Below the pieces are notes generated by a model. That model was not told where the DNA came from, did no database searches, and saw only the letters and a list, made by a program, of their open reading frames with translations. From positions 496,001-560,000 of the forward strand of contig BCKL01000006.1 in NCBI GenBank assembly GCA_001600635.1: a DNA stretch of 64,000 bases. The letters run 5' to 3'. Source of the stretch: Leucosporidium creatinivorum. Its lineage: Eukaryota; Basidiomycota; Microbotryomycetes; Leucosporidiales; Leucosporidiaceae. Below, piece by piece: positions 46,514-63,802 of this stretch. The position numbers and the translations under genes were made by a program. Every line of letters starts with the position of its first letter. The first letter of the stretch is position 1.

Positions 46514-47562
46514 ATGCTCGCTCGCACCTTCACTCTCGCCATCGTCGCCGCCCTCTTCGCTACCGGTCTCGCCTGGTCGGGAGACGGAGAGGACATCAGG
46601 GTTGGTCTCTTTTCTCCGCTCACCTTCCTCCTCCGCCGCTGATCATCTCTTCTCGCGCTGTCCAACAGTTCGCCGAGATCAAGGCTATCAACGAGGACAA
46701 GTTCAAGAAGACCAAGTTCAACGTGAGTTCTCCCTCGTTTCCGATCGCTCAGGCCTCCGCCGACCTGACCTTTCCCCTCCCTTCGTTCCTTCAACAGGTC
46801 CACGACGCCACTGAGCACGACAAGAACTTCAACCAGGTCGAGGCCAAGGATCGCGATGTGCTCAAGGTCGTCGACTTCCGCAAGGACGAGGATGACTTTG
46901 GCGTGAGCTCTCTCTCGCATCTCGGCGCTCCCCTCTCTCGTCGTTTCTCGCGGGCTGACTCTTCTGCTCTCTTTTGACACACATACAGCGCTTCGATCGC
47001 TTCGGTGGAGGCAAGCACGACTTCTACCGCCGCGACGTACGTCCCATCTCCCCGTTCATGTCAGTCTCTCCCCTCCAGCTGACCTTGCTGTCCCTCGCCC
47101 TCCAGTTCGGAGACAACGACTACTACCGTGGAGACGGCGGAAAGTTCGGCCATGGTCGCAAGGGCAAGGTACGTCTCTCACTACTCTGTCACACTCCTTC
47201 CCTCTCCCACACTCCTTCCTCGCCCTCTCTTCTCGGCGCTGACCCGCTTCTTCCCTCTTCCCAGGGCGGCTACGGAGGAGGATACGGAGGTCGCAAGGGT
47301 GGTGACTTCAAGCACCGCAAGGGAGGTGACTTCAAGGTTCGTCTCGCTCGCTTTCATCCCTCCCTCCCTCAGCTCGCCGTCTTGCTCCTTCTCTCGTTCT
47401 CTTCGCTGACTCTGAAATCTCTGCCCACAGCACCGTCCTTTCAAGGGCGGCAAGGACCACGGCTTCAAGGTCAGCCATCCGTTTCCTCGCCCTTTCCCTC
47501 CTTCCCCCTCGCTGACCTTGACCTTCTCCTCTCCTACACAGGGCAAGCACGGCGACTACTAG
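46514..47562 (+). CDS. Small secreted Lys/Gly/His-rich protein, copy A
   Basis: A 162-residue protein in eight exons of 29, 18, 35, 16, 21, 24, 13 and 6 codons, all separated by phase-0 introns. The signal peptide (MLARTFTLAIVAALFATG) is followed by WSGDGEDIR. The mature part has FAEIKAINEDKFKKTKFN and VHDATEHDKNFNQVEAKDRD. The second half is a repeat-like run rich in Gly, Lys, Arg, His, Phe and Tyr: RFDRFGGGKHDFYRRD, FGDNDYYRGDGGKFGHGRKG, GGYGGGYGGRKGGDFKHRKG. There are no cysteines. No family is recognised. It may be a cell-wall or surface protein, or a secreted peptide precursor with dibasic sites, but nothing is proven. Copy B differs at one residue in the signal peptide. Confidence 0.8.
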
Positions 47563-48019
47563 ACTCGTCTACCCCGCAAGTCGCTCTCTCATTCTCTCCT
47601 CCACCTACATCTCGCTGACCCGCCTCCCTCTCTTCCACAGCTGCTCCCCCTCGCCCTCGGCTTGAGCCTCCTCCTCCCCATCTCCCCTGCTTAGCTTTTC
47701 TCCCCGAGTCTCTTTGTTCTTCCCCTTTCTTTGTACATAGCTTGGGAGTCTCACCCCCTTGTGCTTTCCCCCATCTTCTTCGTCCGTCTCTCCCCCTTCT
47801 CCCGCGAATCGGCTCGTGCTCTTCGCCGAGAGAGCCTCGCGCCGAGATTCTCGCCTGCTTGCGCCCTGCCCACTAGCCTGCACTTCGATTCGCCTCCTCG
47901 GCTCGGCTTTCACTTGTGTTCTTGCTTGCCATATCGAACTCTACGCTGCCTCACATCCGCACTCGCCTCGTCTGGTCCGCTGCTCTCGCTGCCTCGCCCG
48001 CCATCCCATCGCTCGCCTT

Positions 48020-48020
48020 N
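48020..48020. other. Ambiguous base
   Basis: A single n. The matching position in the copy B flank is c. Confidence 0.95.
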
Positions 48021-48260
48021 TGCATCTCGAGCAACCCCTCGCGCGAACCTCCTCTCATCACAACTCAGCTCGTCTTGCTACGCTACCAGTCTCTGGCGCA
48101 TCGCTGGCAACAGAATCTCTGGAGCGCTCGGCGCTGTAGTTCGACGGGGGAGTCGAGCTCGCTTCACTGTCGGGCTGAACGTAGCCTTCGCCTCTAGCAT
48201 GATCGAAGTCTGCTGAGCGAGCTGCAGTTCCAACATCGAACTCTATACACCTGCGAGTGA

Positions 48261-48462
48261 TTAGAACTGCGAACAGAACGAAAGCGAGGTCAGCGTCTCG
48301 TTCGCCGACCCTTCAGACGGCCAGGGAGCATCAACTCACGTAGAGACTGGCGCAGAAGACAATGTCCCTCCGAATCTTGAGCTGACATTGCTCCATCTTG
48401 GTGAAGAGATCGGCGTTGCCCACGATGCGAGCGGCGTCGCGGACTTCTCGGCACGTCTCGTC
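48261..48462 (-). pseudogene. Inverted fragment of the SKI2 3' end
   Basis: On the minus strand it carries the last 39 codons of SKI2's penultimate coding exon ([16 protein letters not shown] to IVFCASLY). A typical intron follows (GTGAGT donor, CTGACC branch box, CGCAG acceptor), and then the tiny exon TTCTAA at 48261-48266. It has no start and no helicase core, so it is a non-functional fragment. It lies 78 bp past the end of the cyclophilin-40 gene. Confidence 0.88.
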
Positions 48463-48540
48463 TAAGCAAGTGACGGCGCAGATGGCGAAACTATGTGCGA
48501 AACGATGTGTTGCAGTGTATGAATCTCCCTGGCGAACCCC

Positions 48541-50214
48541 CTACTGGAACATCTTGCTGTAAGCTGCACGAGTGGCCTTCTTCTTCGCCTCGGCGCGGGC
48601 CTTAGCGCTGTTCAGCCTGCGGAAAGGAAGAGAATGGTCAGCTCGAGCCTTCGACTGACTACAGCGTTGCTCAAGCTCACTCCTTGGTGATGGCACCATC
48701 TCCCGGCGCAAACTTGAGAGCCTGCTCCAAGTCCTTGATGGCATCGGCCTCCTCCTTGACGGCGAGCAGTCCCAGCGCCCTGCGGTACAGGCACTTGGCC
48801 TTCTCTCCATCCGCTAACTTGCGCTTCATCTGCTCCTTCTCTGCGTCTCCGTCGAGGTCGACTGCTCGCGAGGCCTGCTTGATGGCGAGACGGGCGTCGG
48901 TCGCGGTGATGGGAGTGGAGGTCTTGAGGGCGGTGAGGGCGGAGTTGAGGAGGAGGGAAAGCTTGAGGGCGGAGAGGGAGTCCTCGACCACGAGATCACG
49001 CTCGGCGAGGAAGGGGTGAACATCGAGGTCTGCACGAGGAGGAGAGCAAGATCAGCCTCGGTCGGGCAAAGGTTGAGAGGCGGAGGACTCGATGGCTTGA
49101 CTGAATGGTGGAGCGAGCTCAGAGAGGTAGCTTACACCTAATAGCCTTCTGGTACTTCTTCTGCGCAGTCTTGAAGTCGCCCTGCTTGAAGTACTCAGTT
49201 CCCTTGGTCTTGAGGTCGGTGGCGATCTTGAGGACGACCTTGGGGTCCTGGGTGTCGTGCTCATCGTCGGAGGGGTAGGACTCGTATCCATCGGCGGTGG
49301 GGTCCACCGGCTGGCCGTCAGCCTCGCCGTCCTTGAGCTCTCCGCAGTCGGCGATGAGGATGGTCTCCGAAGGCGAGTCGTTCTGGCAAGGCGAGTCCTC
49401 CATCAGGCGAACGGTCGAGCGACCGCTGACGACCTTTCCGTAGACGCAGTGCTTTCCGTCGAGGTGAGGGGTGGGGACGGTGGTGATGAAGAACTGGAGG
49501 GAGACGAGAAGGGTCAGCTCGGCGATGGGTATCAAGTCGGCGAGGGCGCGAGCGCACCTGACTGCCGTTGGTGTTGGGTCCAGCGTTGGCCATGGAGAGG
49601 AGGAACGGCTTCTCGTGCTTGAGGGTGAAGTTCTCGTCCTCGAACTTCTCGCCGTCTGCGAGGGGGGCAGATTGGAGAAACGGCGAACAGATAGTCAGCG
49701 GGAGCCGCGAGAGCGACCGAGAGAGCACAGAGACGTACAGATGGACTCTCCTCCAGTTCCGTTGCCGTTGGTGAAGTCTCCGCCTTGGCACATGAACCTG
49801 CAGCACCACATCTAGCGGTCAGCTCACTCTCGGTACTCGTCTGAGCCTCGGAGAACGCACCTCTTGATGATACGGTGGAACTTGCTACCCTTGTAGTGCA
49901 GCGGCTTGCCACTCTTGCCGACTCCCTTCTCTCCAGTGCAGAGCGCGCGGAAGTTCTCCGCCGTTCGAGGCGCGACGTCGGCGAAGAGCTCAAAGACGAT
50001 GCGACCAGCATGGTTGCCGTTGATGGCGCTGTGGTAGAGTGTAGAGCCGTCAGCGCAAGCTCGCTGAGGTGTAGTGGGGCAGGAGGATGACAGCTTACAT
50101 GTCGAAGAAGACGCGGGGGTTCTTGCTGGAAGCAGCAGCAGCCTGAGCAGCTACAGGAGCGAGAGGAGCATCGGCAGGGGCCTGGACGGCAGGGGGAAGA
50201 TCGCTAGCAGACAT
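48541..50214 (-). CDS. CPR6: Cyclophilin 40 (Cpr6/PPID) peptidyl-prolyl isomerase
   Basis: An Hsp90 co-chaperone with a cyclophilin domain and a TPR domain. The cyclophilin half has [47 protein letters not shown]-type substrate loop [13 protein letters not shown] and [13 protein letters not shown]. The TPR half has [46 protein letters not shown] and [15 protein letters not shown], and it ends [13 protein letters not shown], the usual family end. A hydrophilic N-terminal extension of about 30 residues ([18 protein letters not shown]) is unusual. Several introns follow. It is head to head with SKI2, 82 bp apart, and lies inside the inverted repeat. Confidence 0.93.
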
Positions 50215-50296
50215 TGTCGAGGTGCAGCGAGTGAGTTGGAAGAGGCCAACCCGTCTCCGAATTCCCGAACTTTGTCGCGCTCCTCTCACTTTCGTC
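50215..50296. promoter_or_regulatory. Very short shared promoter
   Basis: Only 82 bp separate the start codons of cyclophilin 40 (-) and SKI2 (+). Both 5'UTRs and core promoters must overlap here or lie inside the neighbouring genes. No TATA-like box was recognised. Confidence 0.5.
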
Positions 50297-53200
50297 ATGG
50301 CTTCAACAACACCGCTGAGCGCCGAGGAGCGGCAGCAGCTGCTCAAGGATCTAGGAGTAGGAGTGCCACCTTCACCAGCAGAGATCAAGCACGAGCTCGA
50401 ACAGGAATGGCTCCGGCCCAGCAAGGGAGGGAGGAAGGAGCTCGGCGAGCCTTACTGGACCATGTAAGTCTGAGCCGTACCGCTAAGCAGCTACAGGCTA
50501 ATGCACTCTAATCTGTACAGGCACTGGAATCGCCCTACCGACGTTCGCTCCTTGCTCCACATCGAACCGACCTTCCCTACTACCTCGCTCGAGTTTCGCT
50601 CCGCCGGACTCAACGGCGACATCACTGGTTACCGCGAGGTCACTCAAGCAGCAGCACCGCGCACTGCTCTCAACAGCACCAGCGTCGATCGCAAGCCTAG
50701 CAGCTACACGGGCAGCTTCGTGAGGGGCAAGAGCTCCTACTTCCCTTTCCGACCTGGAGGGCTCGCCGAGGAGCTCGGTCTCAGGGACGACGATGAAGGA
50801 TTGGAAGGGGCTGCTGAAGGGCTAGAGAAGGCGTTCGAGAAGGGCCGAGGTGAGCTACATTTCGGCGAGGGCTTGTTTATATCGAGCTAACCCCCGGCCC
50901 CTTCGCAGGCGGCATCCTCACCATCCCGCCAGGCTTCACGCGTGGTCTCGACTTTGGACCATTAGCCGACGACGTCGAGGGTGGTCTTCTCGACGAGGAG
51001 GAGGAAGTTGAAGTCACGCCGATCTACCGACCGATGCTCGACCTCTCCAACGAGAGCAAGACGACCGCCGTGATTGTGAGTGCTCGGAGGCGTCCTCGGT
51101 TCGTCTAATCGCTCACGAACTTCTTCTCCAGCACAACCGACCCGCACCTTCAGCGCCAAAAGTGCAGCTCGACTCAACAATCGAGGAGCTGCTCCCCGCC
51201 CGAGTTCGTCTCGTGCTCAGCTCGGTCTTCGCATTCCGCTAATCTTTCGCCACACAGCGACTCGCCAAGATGCCTGCTACCTCTACCACTCGTCGGCGAC
51301 CTGTCGTGGCCAAGCGCGATTGGGCTCACGTCGTCGACGTCAATCGCGAGATTGTCAACTTCCGCGAGCTCGTACCGGACATGGCTCGCGAGGCAAGCTG
51401 ACTGAGGGTACAGAGAGGAGCTACAGCTGACGTCTCTATCTGCTACAGTACCCCTTCGAGCTCGATACCTTCCAGAAAGAGGCCATCTATCACATGGAGG
51501 TCGGCGAGTCGGTCTTCGTGGCGGCGCACACCTCGGCTGGAAAGACGGTCGTCGCAGAGTACGCCATCGCACTCGCAGCCAAGCACATGACTCGCGCCAT
51601 CTACACTTCCCCCATCAAAGCCCTCTCCAACCAGAAATTCCGCGATTTCCAGCACACCTTCCCGCCGAACCAGGTCGGTATTCTCACGGGAGACGTGCAG
51701 ATCAACCCCGAGGCGAGCTGTTTGATCATGACGACCGAGATTCTGCGGAGTATGCTCTACAAGGTGCGCAGCTCGTTCTCTCATGCGCATCGAACGGTCC
51801 TAGTCTAACTCTTCGACTCGCCTCGCAGGGAGCCGATCTCATTCGCGACGTCGAGTGGGTCATCTTCGACGAGGTGCACTACGTCAACGACCTCGAGCGC
51901 GGAGTCGTATGGGAGGAGGTCATCATCATGCTTCCGGACCACGTCAACATCATCCTGCTCTCGGCGACCGTGCCGAATACCAAGGAGTTCGCCGATTGGG
52001 TCGGGTGAGGCCTTCCTCTCACTTCGTTTACTTGTCGCTTCCACTCACACTGCTCTCGTTCACAGTCGCACCAAGAAGAAGGACATCTACGTCATCTCCA
52101 CCCCGAAACGACCAGTCCCGCTCGAGCACTTCCTCTACTCGGGCAAGGAGCTGCACAAGATCGTCGATTCCAAGGGCCAGTTCCTCGGCGCAGGCTACAA
52201 GGATGCGACCGAGTCCGTCAAGCGCAAGCAGGAGAAGGAGCGCGAGGCGGCCGGCATTCTGCCTCCTGGCCGAGGAGGAGCAGCCGCTGGTCGAGGTGCA
52301 CCAGGGCGAGGCGGCGCTCAACGAGGCGGAGGTCAGAACCGTGGTGGAGGAAACGCGGCGAGGCAGGTGGCAGCGAGGGGAGCAGCAGCAGCAGCACGAG
52401 GCGGTCGCCCCGGACCCAACGCTCGCTCGATGCAGGCGAGGGACTCGACCCTGTGGATCCACCTCATCGGCCTACTCAAGAAGAAGGAGCTCTTGCCAGT
52501 CGTCGTCTTCACCTTCAGCAAGCGTCGATGCGAGGAGAACGCCGCTAGCATGCCCAACACAGATCTCTGCACCGCGGCCGAGAAGAGCGAGGTGCACATC
52601 GCGATCGAGCGGAGCTTGACGAGGCTGAAGGGTGAGTGGAGTTCTGTTTCTGCACTTTATAAGGAACTGAGCTGATCTTGCTCCGCTGCAGGATCCGACA
52701 AGCTTCTTCCTCAGATCACCAACATGAGGCACTTGCTCGGCCGAGGCATTGGAGTCCACCACGGCGGCCTGCTTCCCATCGTCAAAGAGGTGAGTGTCTT
52801 TCCTCAGTCTCTCGATCCAACGACCCTTTGCTGACCACCTCTGCTGTAGATCGTCGAGCTGCTCTTCGCCCGAGGACTCGTCAAGGTCCTCTTCGCAACC
52901 GAGACGTTCGCCATGGTCCGGATCGTCAGGCTATCGACCGCTCGAGGCCTTCCACTGACTTCGCCTATATCTACAGGGAGTCAACATGCCCGCCAAATGT
53001 GTCGTCTTCTCTGGTATCCGCAAGCACGACGGCCGAAGCTTCCGCGACCTCCTCCCCGGCGAGTAGTAAGCTGCGCCGAGCCTCACCTTTCGACGCTCGC
53101 AGCTCATCGCCTTTCTCGCAACAGTACTCAGATGTCGGGACGAGCAGGTCGTCGTGGGCTCGACAAGACGGGAACGGTCATCATCGTCGCTGATGGCGAG

Positions 53201-55315
53201 GTCCCGGAAGTGAGTCGTCTTTTCGCGCTGGATACAAGCTCGCGGCTGACCTTCTACTCGCACAGACGACGACTCTCACCCACATGCTCCTCGGCCAACC
53301 GACCAAGCTACAATCGCAGTTCCGCCTCACCTACTCGATGATCCTCAACTTGCTTCGCGTGGAGGCGCTTCGAGTCGAGGAGATGATCAAGCGCAGTTTC
53401 TCGGAGAATGCAGCACAGAGGCTACTTCCCGAGCACCAGAAGAAGGTCACCGAGGTGCGATCAGCTTCCATTCGCCGCTTCTCGAGCTTCGGCTGACCCT
53501 TCCCTCGGCGCTGCAGGGAGAGTCTGAACTCAAGGCGCTTCGCAAGCTCGAGCCGGGACCCAAAACCGAGCAGCTTAAGCGGTTCTACGACCTCTCGCAA
53601 CGCATCGTCGAACTCAACACGGCTGTCGTCGAAGGCGTCCTCAGTCATCCAGCGACGGCCAAGATCCTCTCGAGCGGCCGAGTCGTTGTTCTCTCCGATG
53701 GGGTGAGCCTTTCTGTCCCTCGCCGAAAATCTTCGAACTAACCCTTTCTCTCCTCCTAGCACTTCCGCGACAACGCTGCTATTCTGCTGAAGTCGGCGCC
53801 GCTGGCAGTCGACGCCTCGGGAGTCATCGACTCCACGAAACAGTTCTTCGTCCTCGCTTTTGTGCCGCCAGACATTCGTGCAGCCAAGAACGGTGCGTAG
53901 TACTGATCTCCTCTCTTCTGAGGCGCTTGACTGAGGCAACTTCCGCAGACGTCGCCACCGATGCTGTCCCGCCGAGATGGCCTCCTCATCCCGCTACTTC
54001 CACCGCCGAGACTCTCACCTACGAGCTCGCGATCGTCCCCATCACCAGCATCTCGCTCGTCACTTCTACCAGCATCAAGGTCGGTTCGGCCGCTCCCCCG
54101 CGTTTCTCGATCTCGCTCATCCGCCCTCTCTCTGCAGGTCGACGCCGAGGGCATCGCAGAGCGTCATCGTCGTTCCTTCATGGAGAACGCGCTGGCCGAG
54201 TATGTCAACCTCTCCGCCTCCGGCTTGCAGCTGCAGGAGGCCGATTGGAGCAAGGTTCGCGGCCTCGAGTTCCGCGAGGCGATGGGCGAGCGAGACGAGC
54301 TGGTCGGCCAGCTGGCCTTCATCGAGGTTGACGTCGAAGAGGATGGCTTCTCAGAGTTGGTGAGTCACCTCAGATCTCTTTCTGCCTCGAACGCACGCTA
54401 ACCCTTCCTCCTTCGCAGTACCAAACTCTTCACGGCGAGCGCGTGCTGCAGGACAAGATCGCAGGGTGAGCTCATCTTGCATCGTAGTTGAACCTCGGTC
54501 TGATCGCCCCTCTCACAGCCTGAGGATGGCCCTGAGCGAGCAAAACCTCGAGCTCCTCCCCGACTACGAGCAGCGCATTGAGGTGCTCAAGGATCTCAAG
54601 TTCATCAGCGACGACCAGACCGTCCTCCTCAAGGGTCGCGTGGCTTGCGAGGTATGTTTATTTGCTGCCCATTCGCTTCTTACCGCTTACGTCTCGCTCC
54701 GCCAGATCAACTCGGCCAACGAGCTTGTCCTCACCGAGCTCATCTTGGAGAACACCTTTGCCGCCTACGAGCCCGAGGAGGTCGTCGCTTTGCTCTCCTG
54801 CTTCATTTTCCAGGAGAAGACAGATGTCGAGCCTCTGTTGACGTCCAAGCTCGAGGAGGTACGCTCGCTGTTCGGTTTTGCTCCCTCTCGCTTTGCTGAC
54901 TTGTTGCTCGGATGCAGGGCAAGGCCACCATCTTGGACATCGCCGAGCGTGTGCGCGCTGTCCAGACCAGGCATCGCGCCGACTTTGCCGACGAAGGCTT
55001 CAACAACGACCTCAAGTTTGGCCTCGTCGAGGTCGTCTACGAGTGGGCGAAGGGAATGGTGAGGCGTCTGCTGGTCTTCATCCTGGGCCAACACTGACTT
55101 CGCTTCTCCCGCAGGCTTTCAGTCAGATCACCGCTCTCACCGACGTCCAGGAGGGCACCATTGTTCGCGCCATCACTCGCCTCGACGAGACGTGCCGAGA
55201 AGTCCGCGACGCCGCTCGCATCGTGGGCAACGCCGATCTCTTCACCAAGATGGAGCAATGTCAGCTCAAGATTCGGAGGGACATTGTCTTCTGCGCCAGT
55301 CTCTACGTGAGTTGA
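50297..55315 (+). CDS. SKI2: Ski complex RNA helicase SKI2
   Basis: The DExH helicase of the Ski complex, which feeds mRNA to the cytoplasmic exosome. The N-terminal part (LPPGF-type [34 protein letters not shown]) joins to the helicase core. That core has [29 protein letters not shown] (Walker A), [22 protein letters not shown] and LLSATVPN, followed by [22 protein letters not shown] and [15 protein letters not shown]. An arch insertion (52255-52440) is rich in RGG/GRG. About 20 exons give roughly 1,290 residues. The visible end is DIVFCASLY followed by GTGAGT; an in-frame TGA at 55313-55315 would give YVS. The inverted copy shows that splicing probably goes to a tiny exon, TTCTAA (F-stop), now hidden in the gap. 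Confidence 0.93.
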
Positions 55316-55341
55316 TGCTCCCTGGCCGTCTGAAGGGTCGG

Positions 55342-55916
55342 NNNNNNNNNNNNNNNNNNNNNNNNNNNNNNNNNNNNNNNNNNNNNNNNNNNNNNNNNNN
55401 NNNNNNNNNNNNNNNNNNNNNNNNNNNNNNNNNNNNNNNNNNNNNNNNNNNNNNNNNNNNNNNNNNNNNNNNNNNNNNNNNNNNNNNNNNNNNNNNNNNN
55501 NNNNNNNNNNNNNNNNNNNNNNNNNNNNNNNNNNNNNNNNNNNNNNNNNNNNNNNNNNNNNNNNNNNNNNNNNNNNNNNNNNNNNNNNNNNNNNNNNNNN
55601 NNNNNNNNNNNNNNNNNNNNNNNNNNNNNNNNNNNNNNNNNNNNNNNNNNNNNNNNNNNNNNNNNNNNNNNNNNNNNNNNNNNNNNNNNNNNNNNNNNNN
55701 NNNNNNNNNNNNNNNNNNNNNNNNNNNNNNNNNNNNNNNNNNNNNNNNNNNNNNNNNNNNNNNNNNNNNNNNNNNNNNNNNNNNNNNNNNNNNNNNNNNN
55801 NNNNNNNNNNNNNNNNNNNNNNNNNNNNNNNNNNNNNNNNNNNNNNNNNNNNNNNNNNNNNNNNNNNNNNNNNNNNNNNNNNNNNNNNNNNNNNNNNNNN
55901 NNNNNNNNNNNNNNNN
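55342..55916. other. Assembly gap (575 N)
   Basis: Flanked on both sides by the right arm of the inverted repeat. In the left arm the corresponding span is 47884-48304 (421 bases). So the gap should contain roughly the reverse complement of that span, including the last SKI2 exon. The size difference may mean the gap length is only an estimate. Confidence 0.95.
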
Positions 55917-56250
55917 GTGCAGGCTAGTGGGCAGGGCGCAAGCAGGCGAGAATCTCGGCGCGAGGCTCTCTCGGCGAAGAGCACGAGCCGATTCGCGGGA
56001 GAAGGGGGAGACGGACGAAGAGGTGGGGGGAAAGCACAAGGGGTGAGATTCTCAAGCTATGTACAGCGAAAGGGGAAGAACAAAGAGACTCGGGGAGAAA
56101 GAGGCGAAAGCTAAGCAGGGGAGATGGGGAGGAGGAGGCTCAAGCCGAGGGCGAGGGGGAGGGGGAGCAGCTGTGGAAGAGAGGGAGGCGGCTCAGCGAG
56201 ATGTAGGTGGAGGAGAGAGATCGAGAGAGCGACTTGCGGGGTAGACGAGT

Positions 56251-57011
56251 CTAGTAGTCGCCGTGCTTGCCCTGTGTACAAGGGGAGAGGAGGCCAGGAG
56301 GTCAGCGCCCACGCAGGGCAGCAGGGAGAGGAAGAGGAGAGGGAAAGCTCACCTTGAAGCCGTGGTCCTTGCCGCGCTTGAAAGGACGGTGCTGTGGGCA
56401 GAGATTTCAGAGTCAGCGAAGAGAACGAGAGAAGGAGCAAGACGGCGAGGCGAGGGAGGGAGGGACGAAAGCAACCGAGACGTACCTTGAAGTCATCTCC
56501 CTTGCGGTGCTTGGAGTCACCACCCTTGCGACCTCCGTATCCTCCTCCGTAGCCGCCCTGTGAAGAGGGAAGAAGCGGGTCAGCGCCGAGAAGAGAGGGC
56601 GAGGAAGGAGTGTGGGAGAGGGAAGTAGTGTGACAGAGTAGTGAGAGACGTACCTTGCCCTTGCGACCATGGCCGAACTTTCCGCCGTCTCCACGGTAGT
56701 AGTCGTTGTCGCCGAAGTGGAGTTAAGGAGGGCAGGCAATGTCAGCTGGAGCAGAGAGCTGGAGAGAGACGGGCACGTTCGTCGCGGCGGTAGAAGTCGT
56801 GCTTTCCTCCACCGAAGCGATCGAAGCGCTGTGTGTTTCGAAGGAGAGCGGAAGAGTCAGCCCGCGAGAAAAGACGAGAGAGGAAGCGCCGAGATGCGGA
56901 AGAGCACTGACGCCAAAGTCATCCTCGTGAAGTCGACGACCTTGAGGACATCGCGATTCTTGGCCTCGACCTGGTTGAAGTTCTTGTCGTGCTCGGTGGC
57001 GTCGTGGACCT
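56251..57011 (-). pseudogene. Copy C of the secreted-protein gene, broken
   Basis: On the minus strand the later exons survive: HDATEHDKNFNQVEAKNRDV, RFDRFGGGKHDFYRRD, FGDNDYYRGDGGKFGHGRKG, GGYGGGYGGRKGGDSKHRKG, HRPFKRGKDHGFK and GKHGDY, with the TAG at 56251-56253. The promoter, the signal-peptide exon and exon 2 are absent. An 8-base loss in exon 3 breaks the frame (VVDF then TRMTLA). The donor after exon 3 is lost. The donor and acceptor of intron 4 (56717 to about 56784) are both altered. There are also two replacements (F to S, G to R). It is a non-functional remnant. Its intron 4 resembles copy B more, but its 3' flank resembles copy A more. Confidence 0.85.
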
Positions 57012-57044
57012 GTTGGAGGAGGGAGGGGAATGAGAAGGTCAGCT

Positions 57045-57350
57045 CGGCGGACAAGGCGAAAGGGCTAATGGAGCTGAACTCGAGCTTATGTTGGACTTCG
57101 TCTGCCCCAGATGCTCTTGGACCTCAGAAATGCAGCAACTAGGACTCTCTCCCTCTCCCTGCCTCTCAGCTCCCCACTTTCGTCTTCGCGCGGTCGAGGC
57201 CTCGGTGCCGCCGTCTGCTCGGCGCTGTCGTCTCGCCTGTCTCGCTTGTCTTGTCACCTTATCGGGCGAAGCGCGGAGACGAACACTGCTGAATGACATC
57301 GCTGACCACGAATTAAGCTACTGTAGAACCACGACACCTTCACTTTCCTC
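57045..57350. other. Junction region beside copy C
   Basis: Sequence between the truncated end of copy C and the end of the acetyltransferase-like gene. It has no match to the upstream part of copies A or B. No gene was seen. Confidence 0.45.
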
Positions 57351-58909
57351 CTACTCCACCATCTGCTTGAAAGCTGGATCGGTGCCAAGCGTCGAGCTTG
57401 CGATGCGGAGCAGGACCTTCTCGTACGTCCTCCAGAAGGTGTCAACTACTTCGTCGGCGACGACGCCTTCCCTCCATGTCAAGGTGATGTCAAGGGCCCC
57501 CCTCTGAGTAGTGAGAGCCTGCGAGTTGTGGAAGTGATTGGAGAGGGGAAAGCAAGGTCAGCGGTCTCCCCTCTTTCGACTCGACCAAGAGCTGGAGGGA
57601 AACTCCACCGAACTCCACTCACATTCGAACAAAAAGCAGGACCGATCGCCGGCCCAGTCTGCGCCCAACACACCTCAATCCCGCCACTCTGCTCGTCCTC
57701 TTCCCTCTCCCATCCCGTCGCTGGCAGAACACCGAGGTTGCTGACCTCGAACGCCCCCGAGTAAGGGCTTCTACTACCACACTTCTCTTCAATGTACCTC
57801 TCCCATCCCGTCTTCTCGCCCTCAGCACCCGAGAGAGGAGGATCGGGGATGTAAGCGAGCATGCCCATCCCGCTCTGTCCTTTTGGTCGGGTGGCGAGTT
57901 GCGCCGCGTAGTCGCGACAGGAAGGCCAGAATCTTGTGTCGAGTTGCAAAGAGGAAGGGAGGGAGGAGGTCGGAAGGCCGTCCACGTAGTTGCCTGTGGC
58001 GGAGGGGTGGCCGAGCGCGGCGGAACGGAGGGAGAGGGGAGTTTCGCCGATGAGAGGGGGGAGGGTGGTATCGGAGGTAGAGCTGTGCTTTGCGAGTGCG
58101 ATGACGAGGGAGGCAAGAGCGGCCGTGTGCAGGACCGGGTGGAGCGTTTTGGTGTGGTTGGATCCTGCCTCGCCCTTGATGGCCGCGACGACGCTTCGCG
58201 GAACGGACAGATATTTGATGGCGGTACTTTGGTCGAGAGGTTTGAGGAGAGGAGGATTGGGCCAGCAGGGTGGAGATGGTTTGGGCTGGAGGAAGGTGGG
58301 AAGGCGAGGGACGACGACCTCGGCGAAGATGACTCGAGCCAGGTGGGCGTAGGAAGGGCGCAGGTCGATCTTCGACTCTTGCGTGGGAGGGAGATCAAGC
58401 TCACCCTCTTTCGAGGAGGGAAGGGAAGTTGGCGGGGTGTGGAGAAGAGCGATGAGCTCGGCGAAGAGGTTGCGAGTGCCGGTCCCATCGGAGAGGACGT
58501 GGTTGAGGATGAGAAGGATGCGCTGCTTCGACTCGGCGTTCTTCCCCTCCCCGAAAAGCACCACTTTCCACAGCGGCCCCTTCTCGATATCAAACGTCTT
58601 GCCCTCCACCATCCCTCGCTGCAAGACGACCTCTGGCATGGCTCCATCCTCCTCCCTCACTTCTACCAGCTCTCCTGCACTCAACTCCTCCATAGGAACA
58701 TATCTCGGCTCCCTCGTCTGCGCTCCCTGCACCGCACACCTCAAGATCGGGTACTTCCGCAGCAGCTCGGCCACGGCGAGCTCGATGACCTCCTTCTGCA
58801 CCTCGTTGGCGGTCTGTGGGAGGTTGGCGAGGAAGGCGAGGATGGGTGGTGTGCCGACCAGCGTGCGAGAAAGCGAGAAACGCTCGTAAAGTCCGAATTG
58901 GCGCGACAT
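57351..58909 (-). CDS. Alcohol acetyltransferase-like / condensation-fold enzyme
   Basis: Predicted acyltransferase of the AATase (Atf1/Sli1) group, related to the condensation fold. The start gives MSRQFGLYERFSLSRTLVGT. The catalytic motif HxxxDG is seen in ILNHVLSDGTGTRNLF. A second conserved part is YSGAFEVSNLGVLPATG, then AFCSNVSGVRWSFPPALG, and across one intron (acceptor near 57520) ALTTQRGALDITLTWREGVV. It ends at LGTDPAFKQMVE. About 500 residues are encoded in two exons. No signal peptide was seen. Possible substrates are alcohols or sphingoid bases, and sequence alone does not decide between them. Confidence 0.8.
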
Positions 58910-59215
58910 TGAGGCGATGTTCGAGCAGCGAGAAGCAGGAGGGAAAGAGCTGAACTGGCCTGGGAGGCCAAGAAAAGGGACTCTCAGGGGTCTAGTCGAG
59001 GACTCAGCAAACATGTTGCTTCCGCTGCAGTACAGAGCATCTTTTACCGCCGTTACGGCACGTTCTGGTCTTCCGATGTTGCTCGCCTGCAGGACCACCA
59101 ATCCCTCGCCGAGCTCGCTGTCCCTCTCTCTGCGCCGATCTCCTCAGTCGGAGGATCGCAGACAGCTCAGATACAGTGAAAGTCCATCGCATACATCTCC
59201 AACATCTACAGGAAG

Positions 59216-61267
59216 GGGTTGCAGTGGCAGATAGCGGCGCGCACCGGGAAGGAGACGAAGGAGCCGAAAGCGAGTCCCCTGCGAAGCGAGAGCCAAAGCG
59301 TCAGCGGTCGCCCTCGCACGCAGAGCAGAAGGATAGAGAAGGAAACTCACGACGTTAGATAGAACGCCATACAAGTTGCTGCGATGTCGACTTCATGCTC
59401 CTCGAGGGTCGGCTCCACGACGGCGGCGAGCATGACGAGGGTCGAAACGTAGCCGTTGGAGAGTGAGAAGAGGAACATGATGATGAGGTAAGCTGGAGAG
59501 GAGAGAGCGTCAGCTATTAGCTACACAACCAGCTGCCACACGCTGAATTTCGAGGCAGCAGAGCGACCGTCGAAACTCACCGACGTCCGAGCCGATGAAG
59601 GGAGCTCCTGCTGATGCTGAGGTGTTGCACATGAGGAAAAGAGGCTGTAGAGAGAAGAAGGGTCGGCTCGAGAACCTTGCTCTGAAAGTCCAAAGCCATC
59701 AGCTTACGATGAAGACGATCCTCGCCGCCGAAGCCACCGCCAATGCGCGCCAGTCGGTGAACGTCAAGAATTTGGCTTGAGGCAGAATCCGTCCGGTCCA
59801 GTCTCCCAGCGCAAACACCATGAAGCCGATGGGCAGGAAGACGGCCGCTTGACTCCATGTCGGTCCTCCGCTTCCTTCCCCGTGCACGCTCAGGATGCTC
59901 GAGGTGACCGCAGGAAACACGGACAGCGTGACGGCGAAGACGCCAAACATCGCGATGCCCAGCTTGCGGATCTTGCGTTCGACGCCGCGGAGGGATGCCT
60001 TTGGCGAGCTCTTAGAGGGCTTGGACGTGGCCGAGTCGTCCTCATTGGCGCGGACGACGAGCTTGTAGAGAGGTAGGCGCAGGAGAAGGGCGTAGGCGAG
60101 GAGAGAGAAGACGGCGAAGCAGCCGATGGTGAGGAAGAAGGTGAAGGCCGAGTTGCGAACGCCGTCGGCCGGTTCGGGGTTCTCGGCGGAGGCGAGCGCA
60201 CGGCGACGAAGGCTGAGAGGGAGTTGGAGCGAAGGGAGGGAGTCGGTGAAAGATGTCGCAGGTTTGAGAGACGTGTAGGCTGCGATGAGCTGTATTCCTG
60301 CGACGCCAACCGAGATGGCGCCTTGTCCGGAGAGGATGGCTTGGAGGAAAGTGGGGCCGAACGAGGCGGAAAGGGCGACCACAGCGTTCTGGAGGTAGGA
60401 AGCGGAAGCGGCGAGGATGATGGTGCAGAGGATGAGGGCGGCGAAAAAGAAGCTGCGAGGAGAGGTAAGATCAGCGAACAGCCGGGGTGGGAGAAGCTCG
60501 GCTTGGCTCACTCGGGATTGATCTCCTTGACGCGGGTGGAGACGATGTAGAGGGACACGGTAACAATGATAGTAGTGATGGACCATGAGATGCGGCGGCC
60601 AAGGTGAGCCTGTAGGAAGGGAGATGAGGATCAACACCAGAGCTGAGTTGGGGCGCCGAGGGGGCTTGGACTCACGCCTTGCTGAGTCGCGTTCGCGCGC
60701 GCGAGGAACAACAGGTTCCCAGTAGTCTGAGAGTAGTGTAGAGAGGTCAGCGAACGCTGCAGAACAAGAGGGAGGACGACGACGTACGAAGGTCAAGGCA
60801 ACCCAGCTCGAGTATGACGTCTCCCAGGCAGATCCCTCCAGCCGAGCAAGGAAGTAGGCTCCAGCTACAATCTCGGCGTTCCATGCGAGTAGAATGCACG
60901 CTCCGAGGATGAAGAAGCAGCCGTAGGCGATGGCGACCTCGAGCGAGCGGGCCTTCTTCTCCACGGTCTCCTCAGCAACGCCCGACCTGCCCGTCAACGC
61001 GCTCTCGTAGCTAGCCGACCTGCCATGCGATGGTCGGCCCCTGCTGCCGCCTTCCTCGCCTTCCATCAACGGCCGGTACTCGTCCTCTAGTTCCTCCCTG
61101 GCCTCCTCGGGCGTCTCGTCGCCTTCATGCTCTTCCGCATCCCTCACCAGCGTCTCAGCTACTTCTCTACCCTCCTCCCATGCTTCTCGGAGGGATGCCC
61201 TCGTCTTCGAGGCCGATTCCCGTGCTCTGGAGGTCGCGCGCTGAGCAACTGTGAGCGTCGCGAACAT
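59216..61267 (-). CDS. Equilibrative nucleoside transporter (ENT)
   Basis: An 11-helix style transporter. The long N-terminal cytoplasmic region is acidic (about 110 residues, MFATLTVAQRATSRARESAS). Hydrophobic segments include IAYGCFFILGACILLAWNAE, ISWSITTIIVTVSLYIVSTR, FFFAALILCTIILAASASYL, GPTFLQAILSGQGAISVGVA, TFFLTIGCFAVFSLLAYALL, IAMFGVFAVTLSVFPAVTSS and AVFLPIGFMVFALGDWTGRI. The GDWTGR motif and the GQG loop are typical ENT signatures. The end reads GLAFGSFVSFPVRAAICHCN and then PFL. It probably moves nucleosides at the plasma membrane or vacuole (compare yeast Fun26), but location is not shown. Several introns interrupt it. Confidence 0.88.
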
Positions 61268-62237
61268 GGCTGGCTCGATTCGAGTGTCGGGAAGAGGGTG
61301 CAGCGAGATCCCTGATGATAGGGAAGAGGTCGATGGCGAGGAAGGGGCGAGTAGAGGGTGGGAAGCCAGCTTAGTCGAGGAGCGCGTGACGAGGGAGATG
61401 CGGAGGAGGCCAAGGAGCGGGCGCTGGCTTCTGCGTCGAGTCGGTCTCTGTAGAGGTACTCTTGCAGTGTCTGCAGATGTTCCGTGTCGCTACCTGCTGT
61501 ACTTGATCGCGCCGTACAGCGCGCTCAAATTCGGCGAGGGGTCGGTGGAGCGTGAGATGATGAGCAGAAGGACGGGAGTGGCCTACATGTTCGAGTGGAG
61601 CATCAGCTAAGATGGCAAAGCTTCACGCCGGCGCTTGGGATCAGGTGCCGACGACTTCGTGGGCCGTCTCTTCATCCGGCGAGCGGTTCGGCGCTCGGCG
61701 CAGACCTCGGGGCTTTCAAGAGCGACTTCTGGGGCGATCGGGCTGCAAGCTCGCCGTTAAGGGGAAATCATTATATCAGAGAACTGCTAAGATGCTCGGA
61801 CCAGCATGTAAGTCCTCGGCTCGTACATCAGCTGCCTTTCCCCTCCCTGCTCGGCGCCGACGCTGCCCCTTCCTCCGCTGACTTGGGGTGCTCCCCCAGA
61901 TCTCTCGACCTGCAGCCTACATCCTTACACTTCCCAACACCACCACTATAACACCACACTACGCCCAGACAGCTCCTCGTCCTCGCACCACTCTCGCCCC
62001 CTTTCTCGGCGAAGAGGTGACTCGGCTCGTCCCCTGCTCTCTGGCTGCTCGGCTGGGCGTTCTTTTGCAGAGCTAAGCTGGTGCTCCCCTGGTCCTCCAT
62101 GGCCCGAGCTCAGCTCAAGCTCGTCCGCTACAAAAGCGAGCGGCTCGGCTTTCACAGCTTTCCTTCCCATCCATCACGGCTCCTTCGCCCTCGCCTTCGC
62201 CTTCGCCCTTTCACCCTTCGCCAACTCCTACCTCAAG
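61268..62237. promoter_or_regulatory. Divergent region; upstream region of copy B
   Basis: The first part is the promoter side of the transporter gene. From about 61835 the sequence matches the region upstream of copy A almost exactly, including the intron-like 3' end and the TATA-like TACAAAAG near 62129. The stretch 61600-61834 has no match to copy A and contains no recognisable gene. Confidence 0.55.
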
Positions 62238-63802
62238 ATGCTCGCTCGCACCTTCACTCTCGCCATCGTCGCCGCCCTCTCCGCCACCGGTCTCGCCTGG
62301 TCGGGAGACGGAGAGGATATCAGGGTGGGTCTCTTTTCTCTGCTCACCTTCCTCCTCCTCCGCTGACCATTCCCTCCTCTCCCTTGACAGTTCGCCGAGA
62401 TTAAGGCTATCAACGAGGACAAGTTCAAGAAGACCAAGTTCAACGTGAGTTCTCCCTCGTTTCCGATCGCTCAAGCCTCCGCCGAGCTGACCTTTCCCCT
62501 CCCTTCGTTCACTCAACAGGTCCACGATGCCACCGAGCACGACAAGAACTTCAACCAGGTCGAGGCCAAGGATCGCGATGTCCTCAAGGTGGTCGACTTC
62601 CGCAAGGACGAAGATGACTTTGGCGTGAGCTCTCTCTCGCATCTCGGCGCTCCCCTCTCAGCTTTCCCCCCAGCTGACTCTTCTGCTCTCCTTCAACACA
62701 CACACAGCGCTTCGATCGCTTCGGTGGAGGCAAGCACGACTTCTACCGCCGCGACGTACGTTCCCGTCAATCTCCAGCTTTCTGCTCCAGCTGACCTTGC
62801 CTGCCCGCTTCTCTCCAGTTCGGCGACAACGACTACTACCGTGGAGACGGCGGCAAGTTCGGCCATGGTCGCAAGGGCAAGGTACGTCTCTCACTACTCT
62901 GTCACACTCCTTCCCTCTCCCACACTCCTTCCTCGCCCTCTCTTCTCGGCGCTGACCCGCTTCTTCCCTCTTCCCAGGGCGGCTACGGAGGAGGATACGG
63001 AGGTCGCAAGGGTGGTGACTTCAAGCACCGCAAGGGAGGTGACTTCAAGGTTCGTCTCGCTCGCTTTCATCCCTCCCTCCCTCAGCTCGCCGTCTTGCTC
63101 CTTCTCTCGTTCTCTTCGCTGACTCTGAAATCTCTGCCCACAGCACCGTCCTTTCAAGGGCGGCAAGGACCACGGCTTCAAGGTCAGCCATCCGTTTCCT
63201 CGCCCTTTCCCTCCTTCCCCCTCGCTGAGCTTGACCTTCTCCTCTCCTACACAGGGCAAGCACGGCGACTACTAGACTCGTCTACCCCGCAAGTCGCTCT
63301 CTCATTCTCTCCTCCACCTACATCTCGCTGACCCGCCTCCCTCTCTTCCACAGCTGCTCCCCCTCGCCCTCGGCTTGAGCCTCCTCCTCCCCATCTCCCC
63401 TGCTTAGCTATTCTCCCCGAGTCTCTTTGTTCTTCCCCTTTCTTTGTACATAGCTTGGGAGTCTCACCCCCTTGTGCTTTCCCCCATCTTCTTCGTCCGT
63501 CTCTCCCCCTTCTCCCGCGAGTCGGCTCACGCTCTTCGCCGAGAGAGCTTCGCGCCGTGATTCTCGCCTGCTCCCGCGCCCTGCGCACTAGCTTGCACTT
63601 CGATTCGCCTCCTCGGCTCGGCTCTCACTTGTTATCTTGCTTGCCATATCCAACTCCACGCTGCCTCATATCCTCACTCGCCTCTCCAGCTGCGGTTGCT
63701 CTCGCTACCTCGCCTGCCATCCCATCGCTCGCCTTCTGCATCTCGAGCAACCCCTCGCGCGAGCCTCTCCTCATCGCGACTCAGCTCGTCTTGCTACGCT
63801 AC
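61835..63802 (+). repeat. Direct duplication unit, copy B
   Basis: Counterpart of 46105-48090, covering promoter, gene and 3' flank. It ends at TTGCTACGCTAC. Beyond 63802 the two differ. No SKI2 fragment follows here. Confidence 0.9.
62238..63275 (+). CDS. Small secreted Lys/Gly/His-rich protein, copy B
   Basis: The same eight-exon layout as copy A, all phase-0 introns, 162 residues. The only difference from copy A is one signal-peptide residue (ALSATG here, ALFATG in copy A), so the mature protein is identical. Introns 5-7 and the 3' flank are nearly identical to copy A, while intron 4 (62756-62818) is clearly different. The upstream regions also match. Both genes therefore look intact and able to be expressed. 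Function unknown. Confidence 0.8.

Follow-up and report, generated by a model that had tools for sequence, protein, structure and literature searches.

The two intact genes, A and C, in the stretch of DNA analyzed here (the window; 64,000 nucleotides, G000:C6:496001-560000) probably belong to a family of secreted precursors that has at least nine loci in the genome and would be processed by a Kex2-type protease. An initial annotation had described a three-member family of secreted Lys/Gly/His-rich proteins. It missed six further loci, a duplicated module and Kex2-type sites, and with these the likely nature of the products shifts from an intact rich protein to processed precursors. Its account of the composition fits the tail of A and C, but what the family has kept in common is an acidic module. 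The class is ordinary, an orphan fungal secreted family, and the build is unusual. The step from the pattern of KR dipeptides to actual processing, and to any role, is one that we infer from sequence.

Copy A (46514..47562) and copy C (62238..63275), both on the plus strand, are intact genes with eight coding exons that encode 162 amino acids each. The exons of A lie at 46514-46600, 46669-46722, 46798-46902, 46989-47036, 47106-47168, 47265-47336, 47431-47469 and 47542-47562, and those of C at 62238-62324, 62391-62444, 62520-62624, 62708-62755, 62819-62881, 62978-63049, 63144-63182 and 63255-63275. A single substitution among the 162 residues (F15S) separates the two proteins; it is inside the signal peptide, and the predicted mature proteins are identical, as originally reported. 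Other elements of that description were also borne out: both proteins are cysteine-free, both, like the readable paralogs described below, have a hydrophobic start ending in small residues that is signal-peptide-like by inspection, and the tail is spread over short exons of 16, 21, 24, 13 and 6 codons, all introns being phase 0. A spliced-ORF script returned the same eight exons for A, although A and two paralogs had served to train its codon table and the result is therefore not independent support for the model. Introns are short, with CTGAC-like branch sites, and together with the gene content they suggest, in our judgment, a fungal and probably basidiomycete origin. By eye, a probable 3'-UTR intron follows the stop codon of A (window about 47563-47645), with similar ones after the stops of two paralogs, L039g and L040g.

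Whole-genome searches covering 27.7 Mb in 63 contigs, with DNA, protein and an exact pattern, found at least nine loci, including B and a second broken locus. These are located on contig C6 at 85, 141, 542 (A), 552 (B) and 558 (C) kb, and on contig C24 at 301, 343, 384 and 451 kb. The motif VHDxTEHD is encoded at 13 places in the nine loci, with none found in the backwards control, and the family can no longer be counted as three members. Four paralogs gave readable models (L039g, L040g, L042g and L043g, with a few N within the first two), while the middle of L041 (C24:384 kb) is interrupted by an assembly gap, and L044 (C6:141 kb) looks broken as read by eye. Members of an F-box-like/LRR-like gene family adjoin all six non-window loci (L039, L040, L041, L042, L043 and L044); none was matched in the window by tblastn at E 1e-3, and one of the two such genes tested had a Pfam F-box-like match below the cut-off (E 0.0033).

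On these comparisons, what defines the family is an acidic module some 60 residues long and not the Gly/Lys/His tail. In A the conserved module, which consists of WSGDGEDIR plus exons 2 and 3 and is common to the paralogs, spans 46574..46902, and in C it spans 62298..62624 (both plus strand). Modules have a pI of 4.5-4.9 (4.9 in A) and a GRAVY of about -1.1 to -1.3, which makes them strongly hydrophilic. The pattern FK.T.FNVHD.TEHD..F is invariant in all nine modules compared, one of which has diverged to 57% identity; in that module, one of the 14 changes falls within the opening eight residues of exon 3 (P 0.056). A special role for HDxTEHD is at this point a lead, and the invariant motif could bind metal. 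Purifying selection acts on the modules, whose pairwise dN/dS is 0 to 0.35 in the 42 of 45 pairs that allowed dS to be computed. A and C differ by 10 synonymous changes and one nonsynonymous change over about 102 and 384 sites, respectively. The window modules have a dS of 0.25-0.52 to the second modules of the paralogs compared with 0.72-1.10 to the first, a closeness to which codon bias may contribute. In a module tree, only the first modules of three C24 loci form a firm group, and the rest is without resolution. AU tests on this tree gave p-values of 0.02, 0.12, 0.08 and 0.15 overall, with the grouping of all four first modules mildly rejected (p-AU 0.02) and the joining of the window modules with first modules not rejected (p-AU 0.12).

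The evidence for processing comes from the paralogs. All four readable paralogs carry the module twice, while A and C carry it once, and the order is a signal-peptide-like start, module 1, a KR-bracketed linker, module 2 and a C-terminal exon. The linker starts with FGIFKR and ends with ILRKR before WSGGDGEDIR in three paralogs; in L043g it starts with RFISHKR and ends with SLVKR before GGGGDGEDIR. L042g has an additional KR within the linker and another after module 2. In three of the four, the last exon reads HRRFRGGKKGGDFY or HRRFRGGKKGGDYY. The C-terminus of L042g differs in being acidic and cysteine-bearing: a Gly/Ser/Phe-rich end with four cysteines (CSFGCFGGCGC; L042:3935-4117) replaces the basic tail. 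The L042g linker contains SSFGDSSF strings similar to this C-terminal stretch.

Ten KR dipeptides are present in the four precursors. None falls within their eight modules, where shuffling predicts 2.9 (P of none 0.038), and the four linkers hold nine against 0.67 expected, a count reached by none of 5000 shuffles; these statistics overstate the independent evidence because the sites are shared among related genes. Position P4 is Ile or Leu at nine of the 10 sites, or in four of five when distinct five-residue contexts are counted (P 0.016), with SHKR of L043g being the one site without an aliphatic P4. Kex2 has Arg at P1, with a preference for Lys at P2 and for an aliphatic residue such as Leu at P4 (PMC8528282). 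RK and KK do occur within the modules, so that a laxer protease would cut them. The residues after the 10 KR sites are GV, GS, WS, GV, AR, WS, AR, WS, QV and GG. The predicted mature start of A and C, WSGDGEDIR, which signal peptidase would generate, has its counterpart in the KR|WSGGDGEDIR of three of the four paralogs (L043g has GGGG in place of WSGG after its second KR). This mature start is closer to the start of module 2 than to that of module 1, which is LPWGDGEDIR in those three. We find it highly probable that Kex2 cuts the paralogs. Cleavage after KR, in the late Golgi, would release two module peptides of about 60-80 residues together with linker pieces.

A and C look like single-module versions of these precursors with a longer tail. 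They contain no KR, and a single RR follows the module. Under our reading, one module has been joined straight to the signal sequence and is then followed by a longer Gly/Lys/His/Tyr-rich tail. Exon 4 of A (46989..47036, plus strand) is homologous to the paralog last exon (HRRFRGGKKGGDFY followed by a stop), with an alignment score reached by two of 2000 codon shuffles. The alignment ends at ...GACTTCTAC, where the paralogs stop and A reads RRD, and the window tail thus extends past the paralog end. The RR codons, at 47028..47033 in A and at the same position of exon 4 in C (62747..62752; both plus strand), are a candidate but noncanonical Kex2 site, and a poor one given Phe in place of an aliphatic residue at P4. 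RR is also found in the short tails (HRRF) of L039g, L040g and L043g. Carboxypeptidases of the Kex1 type trim the residues left after a cut at a dibasic site. If the RR of exon 4 were cut and the product trimmed in this way, the outcome would be a module peptide ending in ...HDFY, the counterpart of the paralog end ...GGDFY, and a separate basic tail peptide of 65 residues. Cleavage at this RR is possible, although we lean against it.

Tail exons 5-8 of A (47106..47562, plus strand) are Gly/Lys/His/Tyr-rich, and those of C (62819..63275, plus strand) are nearly identical to them, introns included; a genome search with the long Lys/Gly/His-rich tail matched the window copies only. Tails are basic, with a pI of 10.0-10.4, in A and three paralogs, while that of L042g is acidic. 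It is here that the original proposal of an intact, unprocessed secreted protein, with a tail that binds wall polymer, polyanions or metal, finds its support, as A and C lack both KR and cysteine and have a strongly basic tail (pI 10.1, net +11) after an acidic module. Yet the long tail is confined to the window copies, the module is what the family has conserved, and the paralogs carry Kex2-type sites; we consider the intact protein unlikely. The tail exons were also described as modules, a term that is fair for phase-0 exons but not for repeats, since copies of one unit could not be demonstrated. Among the ten pairs of exons 4-8, the closest (exons 4 and 8) had a score reached by 21 of 1000 codon shuffles, followed by exons 4 and 5 (77 of 1000) and the remaining eight pairs (166 or more). 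As relatives of the paralog last exons, exons 5-8 did no better than 79 of 2000 shuffles (exon 8 with L043), which leaves exon 4 as the only tail exon with a convincing relative.

The third copy, B, is broken and inverted, as first described: alignment places its homology, from intron 2 to the stop codon, at 56251..57051 on the minus strand (nothing was restored). Homology stops in intron 2 near 57051, and a search of 55918-61500 recovered neither exon 1 nor exon 2. B also lacks 7 nt of exon 3 through a deletion and shows damage at two or more splice sites. Two stretches of 175 nt (window 48305-48479 and 55167-55341) form an inverted repeat at 98%; the repeated sequence is the 3' end of a SKI2-type gene and adjoins A just as it adjoins B; the SKI2-type gene has a Ski2_N match. 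Taken together with this SKI2 end, A and B resemble a single inverted duplication that surrounds the SKI2 gene and a neighboring gene that we take, by eye, to be CYP40. Next to B, where the SKI2-type gene ends, there is a run of N (55342-55916). Between B and C lies a minus-strand gene, with its start codon at 58909 and extending down to about 57300, that has an alcohol acetyltransferase match over the cut-off (E 2.6e-07) and a condensation-domain match below it.

Introns 5-7 of A and C differ at only one of 262 aligned columns, against 50 of 286 in introns 1-4, from which it follows that the 3' half was probably homogenized by gene conversion and the 5' half was probably held by selection on the protein. 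One could also regard the loci as a decaying, self-multiplying duplication block that makes nothing useful, which would account for the two broken loci (B and, as read by eye, L044) and for the related F-box-like genes beside each of the six non-window loci. This is very improbable given that A and C have kept their protein despite the divergence of introns 1-4 and that dN/dS is low between paralogous modules.

In A, codons end in C at 51 of 57 positions and in G at 28 of 28, compared with 14/14 and 24/25 in a histone stretch (L046) and 10/10 and 10/10 in a stretch that by eye we take to be of the EF1A type (L056). This richness in preferred codons fits a well expressed gene without being proof, since the presumed CYP40 gene is equally biased (72/84 and 74/75). 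A promoter shared between A and the paralogs was considered and is weak: the best match was reached by 9 of 300 shuffles for L040 and L041, 20 for L039, 36 for L042 and 149 for L043. For the peptides of the processed precursors, we favor a bulk product over a signal because of the several copies, the gene conversion and the fairly strong codon bias; that they are extracellular or wall-associated peptides made in quantity is nonetheless a speculative proposal to which we give a low probability. A signaling or pheromone-like family resembling the Kex2-processed repeat proteins (KEPs) would likewise build its precursors from a signal sequence, repeated units and KR sites. We rate it as quite improbable, as there are just two units of about 60 amino acids each, the XA or XP of alpha-pheromone-type precursors (the STE13 signature) is absent after all 10 KR sites, and copy number and codon bias suit a bulk product better.

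All introns are phase 0 in the six readable genes (seven each in A, C, L039g and L040g; eight each in L042g and L043g). This layout is not simply a habit of the genome because the CYP40 gene, the one comparison gene, has mixed phases (2,2,1,0,0,1,2, or two of seven in phase 0); CYP40 alone was used as background as it reads clean, and the SKI2, transporter and acyltransferase models, which are partly wrong, were left out. The idea that exons can be gained or lost without frame damage agrees with the paralogs, which differ by whole blocks (two modules versus one, one tail exon versus five). A bolder reading, which we hold to be less likely than not, is that the phase-0 exons, carrying the signal sequence, the halves of the module, the KR linkers and the tails, are reshuffled as cassettes to change the peptide mix per transcript, and that in the window branch the stop was replaced by RR and new tail exons, giving a second, chemically opposite peptide from the same precursor. 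If the family does consist of processed precursors, the exon layout would be a clear case of peptide cargo added without a break in the frame.

That no known family fits, as the initial annotation stated, agrees with our searches, in which neither Pfam nor NCBIfam gave a match over the cut-off. Pfam had no match for A, only matches below the cut-off for three paralogs (best E 0.013) and one weak DUF1822 match for nine modules (E 0.011); NCBIfam had nothing near the cut-off for two proteins. With A alone, the best PDB match had an E of 0.11. A module profile matched five designed TIM barrels in PDB (E 0.0013-0.0048) over a charged helix, with no TIM barrel stretch passing alone, and two weaker matches; we took these as composition. 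Searches of prokaryote and viral contigs (non-fungal collections) gave 173 and 193 pattern matches, of which none was confirmed. Separately, a weak match on C38 (E 0.64) was read as chance. An amphipathic helix was rejected, as the moment was not above shuffles (380 and 455 of 2000), and AlphaFold2 predicted one helix for exon 3 alone, with a pLDDT of 66.5 that is too weak for use. A literature search for the core string HDATEHD gave no match, and no title or abstract start on the A/C family was found (supplements were outside its scope).

Among known systems, an ustiloxin-type RiPP was considered by searching for UstYa (DUF3328), which had no match in the genome or in control genomes. The proprotein-convertase P domain PF01483 matched over the cut-off in two pieces at C1:694970-695312 (the match covers the P domain), which points to a Kex2-type protease in this genome. 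Rep1 of Ustilago maydis is likewise a basidiomycete secreted precursor from which Kex2 produces several peptides, as described in PMC8528282. Compared by description, the A/C family differs from Rep1 in its strongly hydrophilic modules, of which a protein has no more than two, and the hallmark of Rep1-type repellents is amyloid-forming surface peptides. In Kex2-processed pro-domain (K2PP) proteins, according to the same paper, a Kex2 motif also precedes the mature domain; here, however, the part before the site includes a homologous module rather than a plain pro-domain (PMC8528282).

KEPs are the closest comparison. As described in two surveys, they share with the A/C family a signal-peptide-like start, KR-separated repeats, units below 100 amino acids and several genes per genome (PMC6339444, PMC7329392). 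One of them sets the repeat unit at 8 to 100 amino acids and accepts KR and also RR, KK and RK as Kex2 sites (PMC7329392), and an Agaricomycete study is reported to have detected KEP peptides and found no function for them (PMC9769878). Both surveys require at least three repeats between Kex2 sites (PMC6339444, PMC7329392). The paralogs have two modules and A and C one; the module falls within the unit size and the KR sites fall outside it. Other differences from KEPs as so described are the ~60-residue units, the long non-repeated linker and the placement of each segment on its own phase-0 exons. By that definition, the A/C family is not a KEP family, though by analogy it appears to work like one. 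Two-module precursors would be excluded from these two published surveys by rule, and if our reading is true, such families, whose units are of a size that could fold, would be an overlooked part of fungal secretomes.
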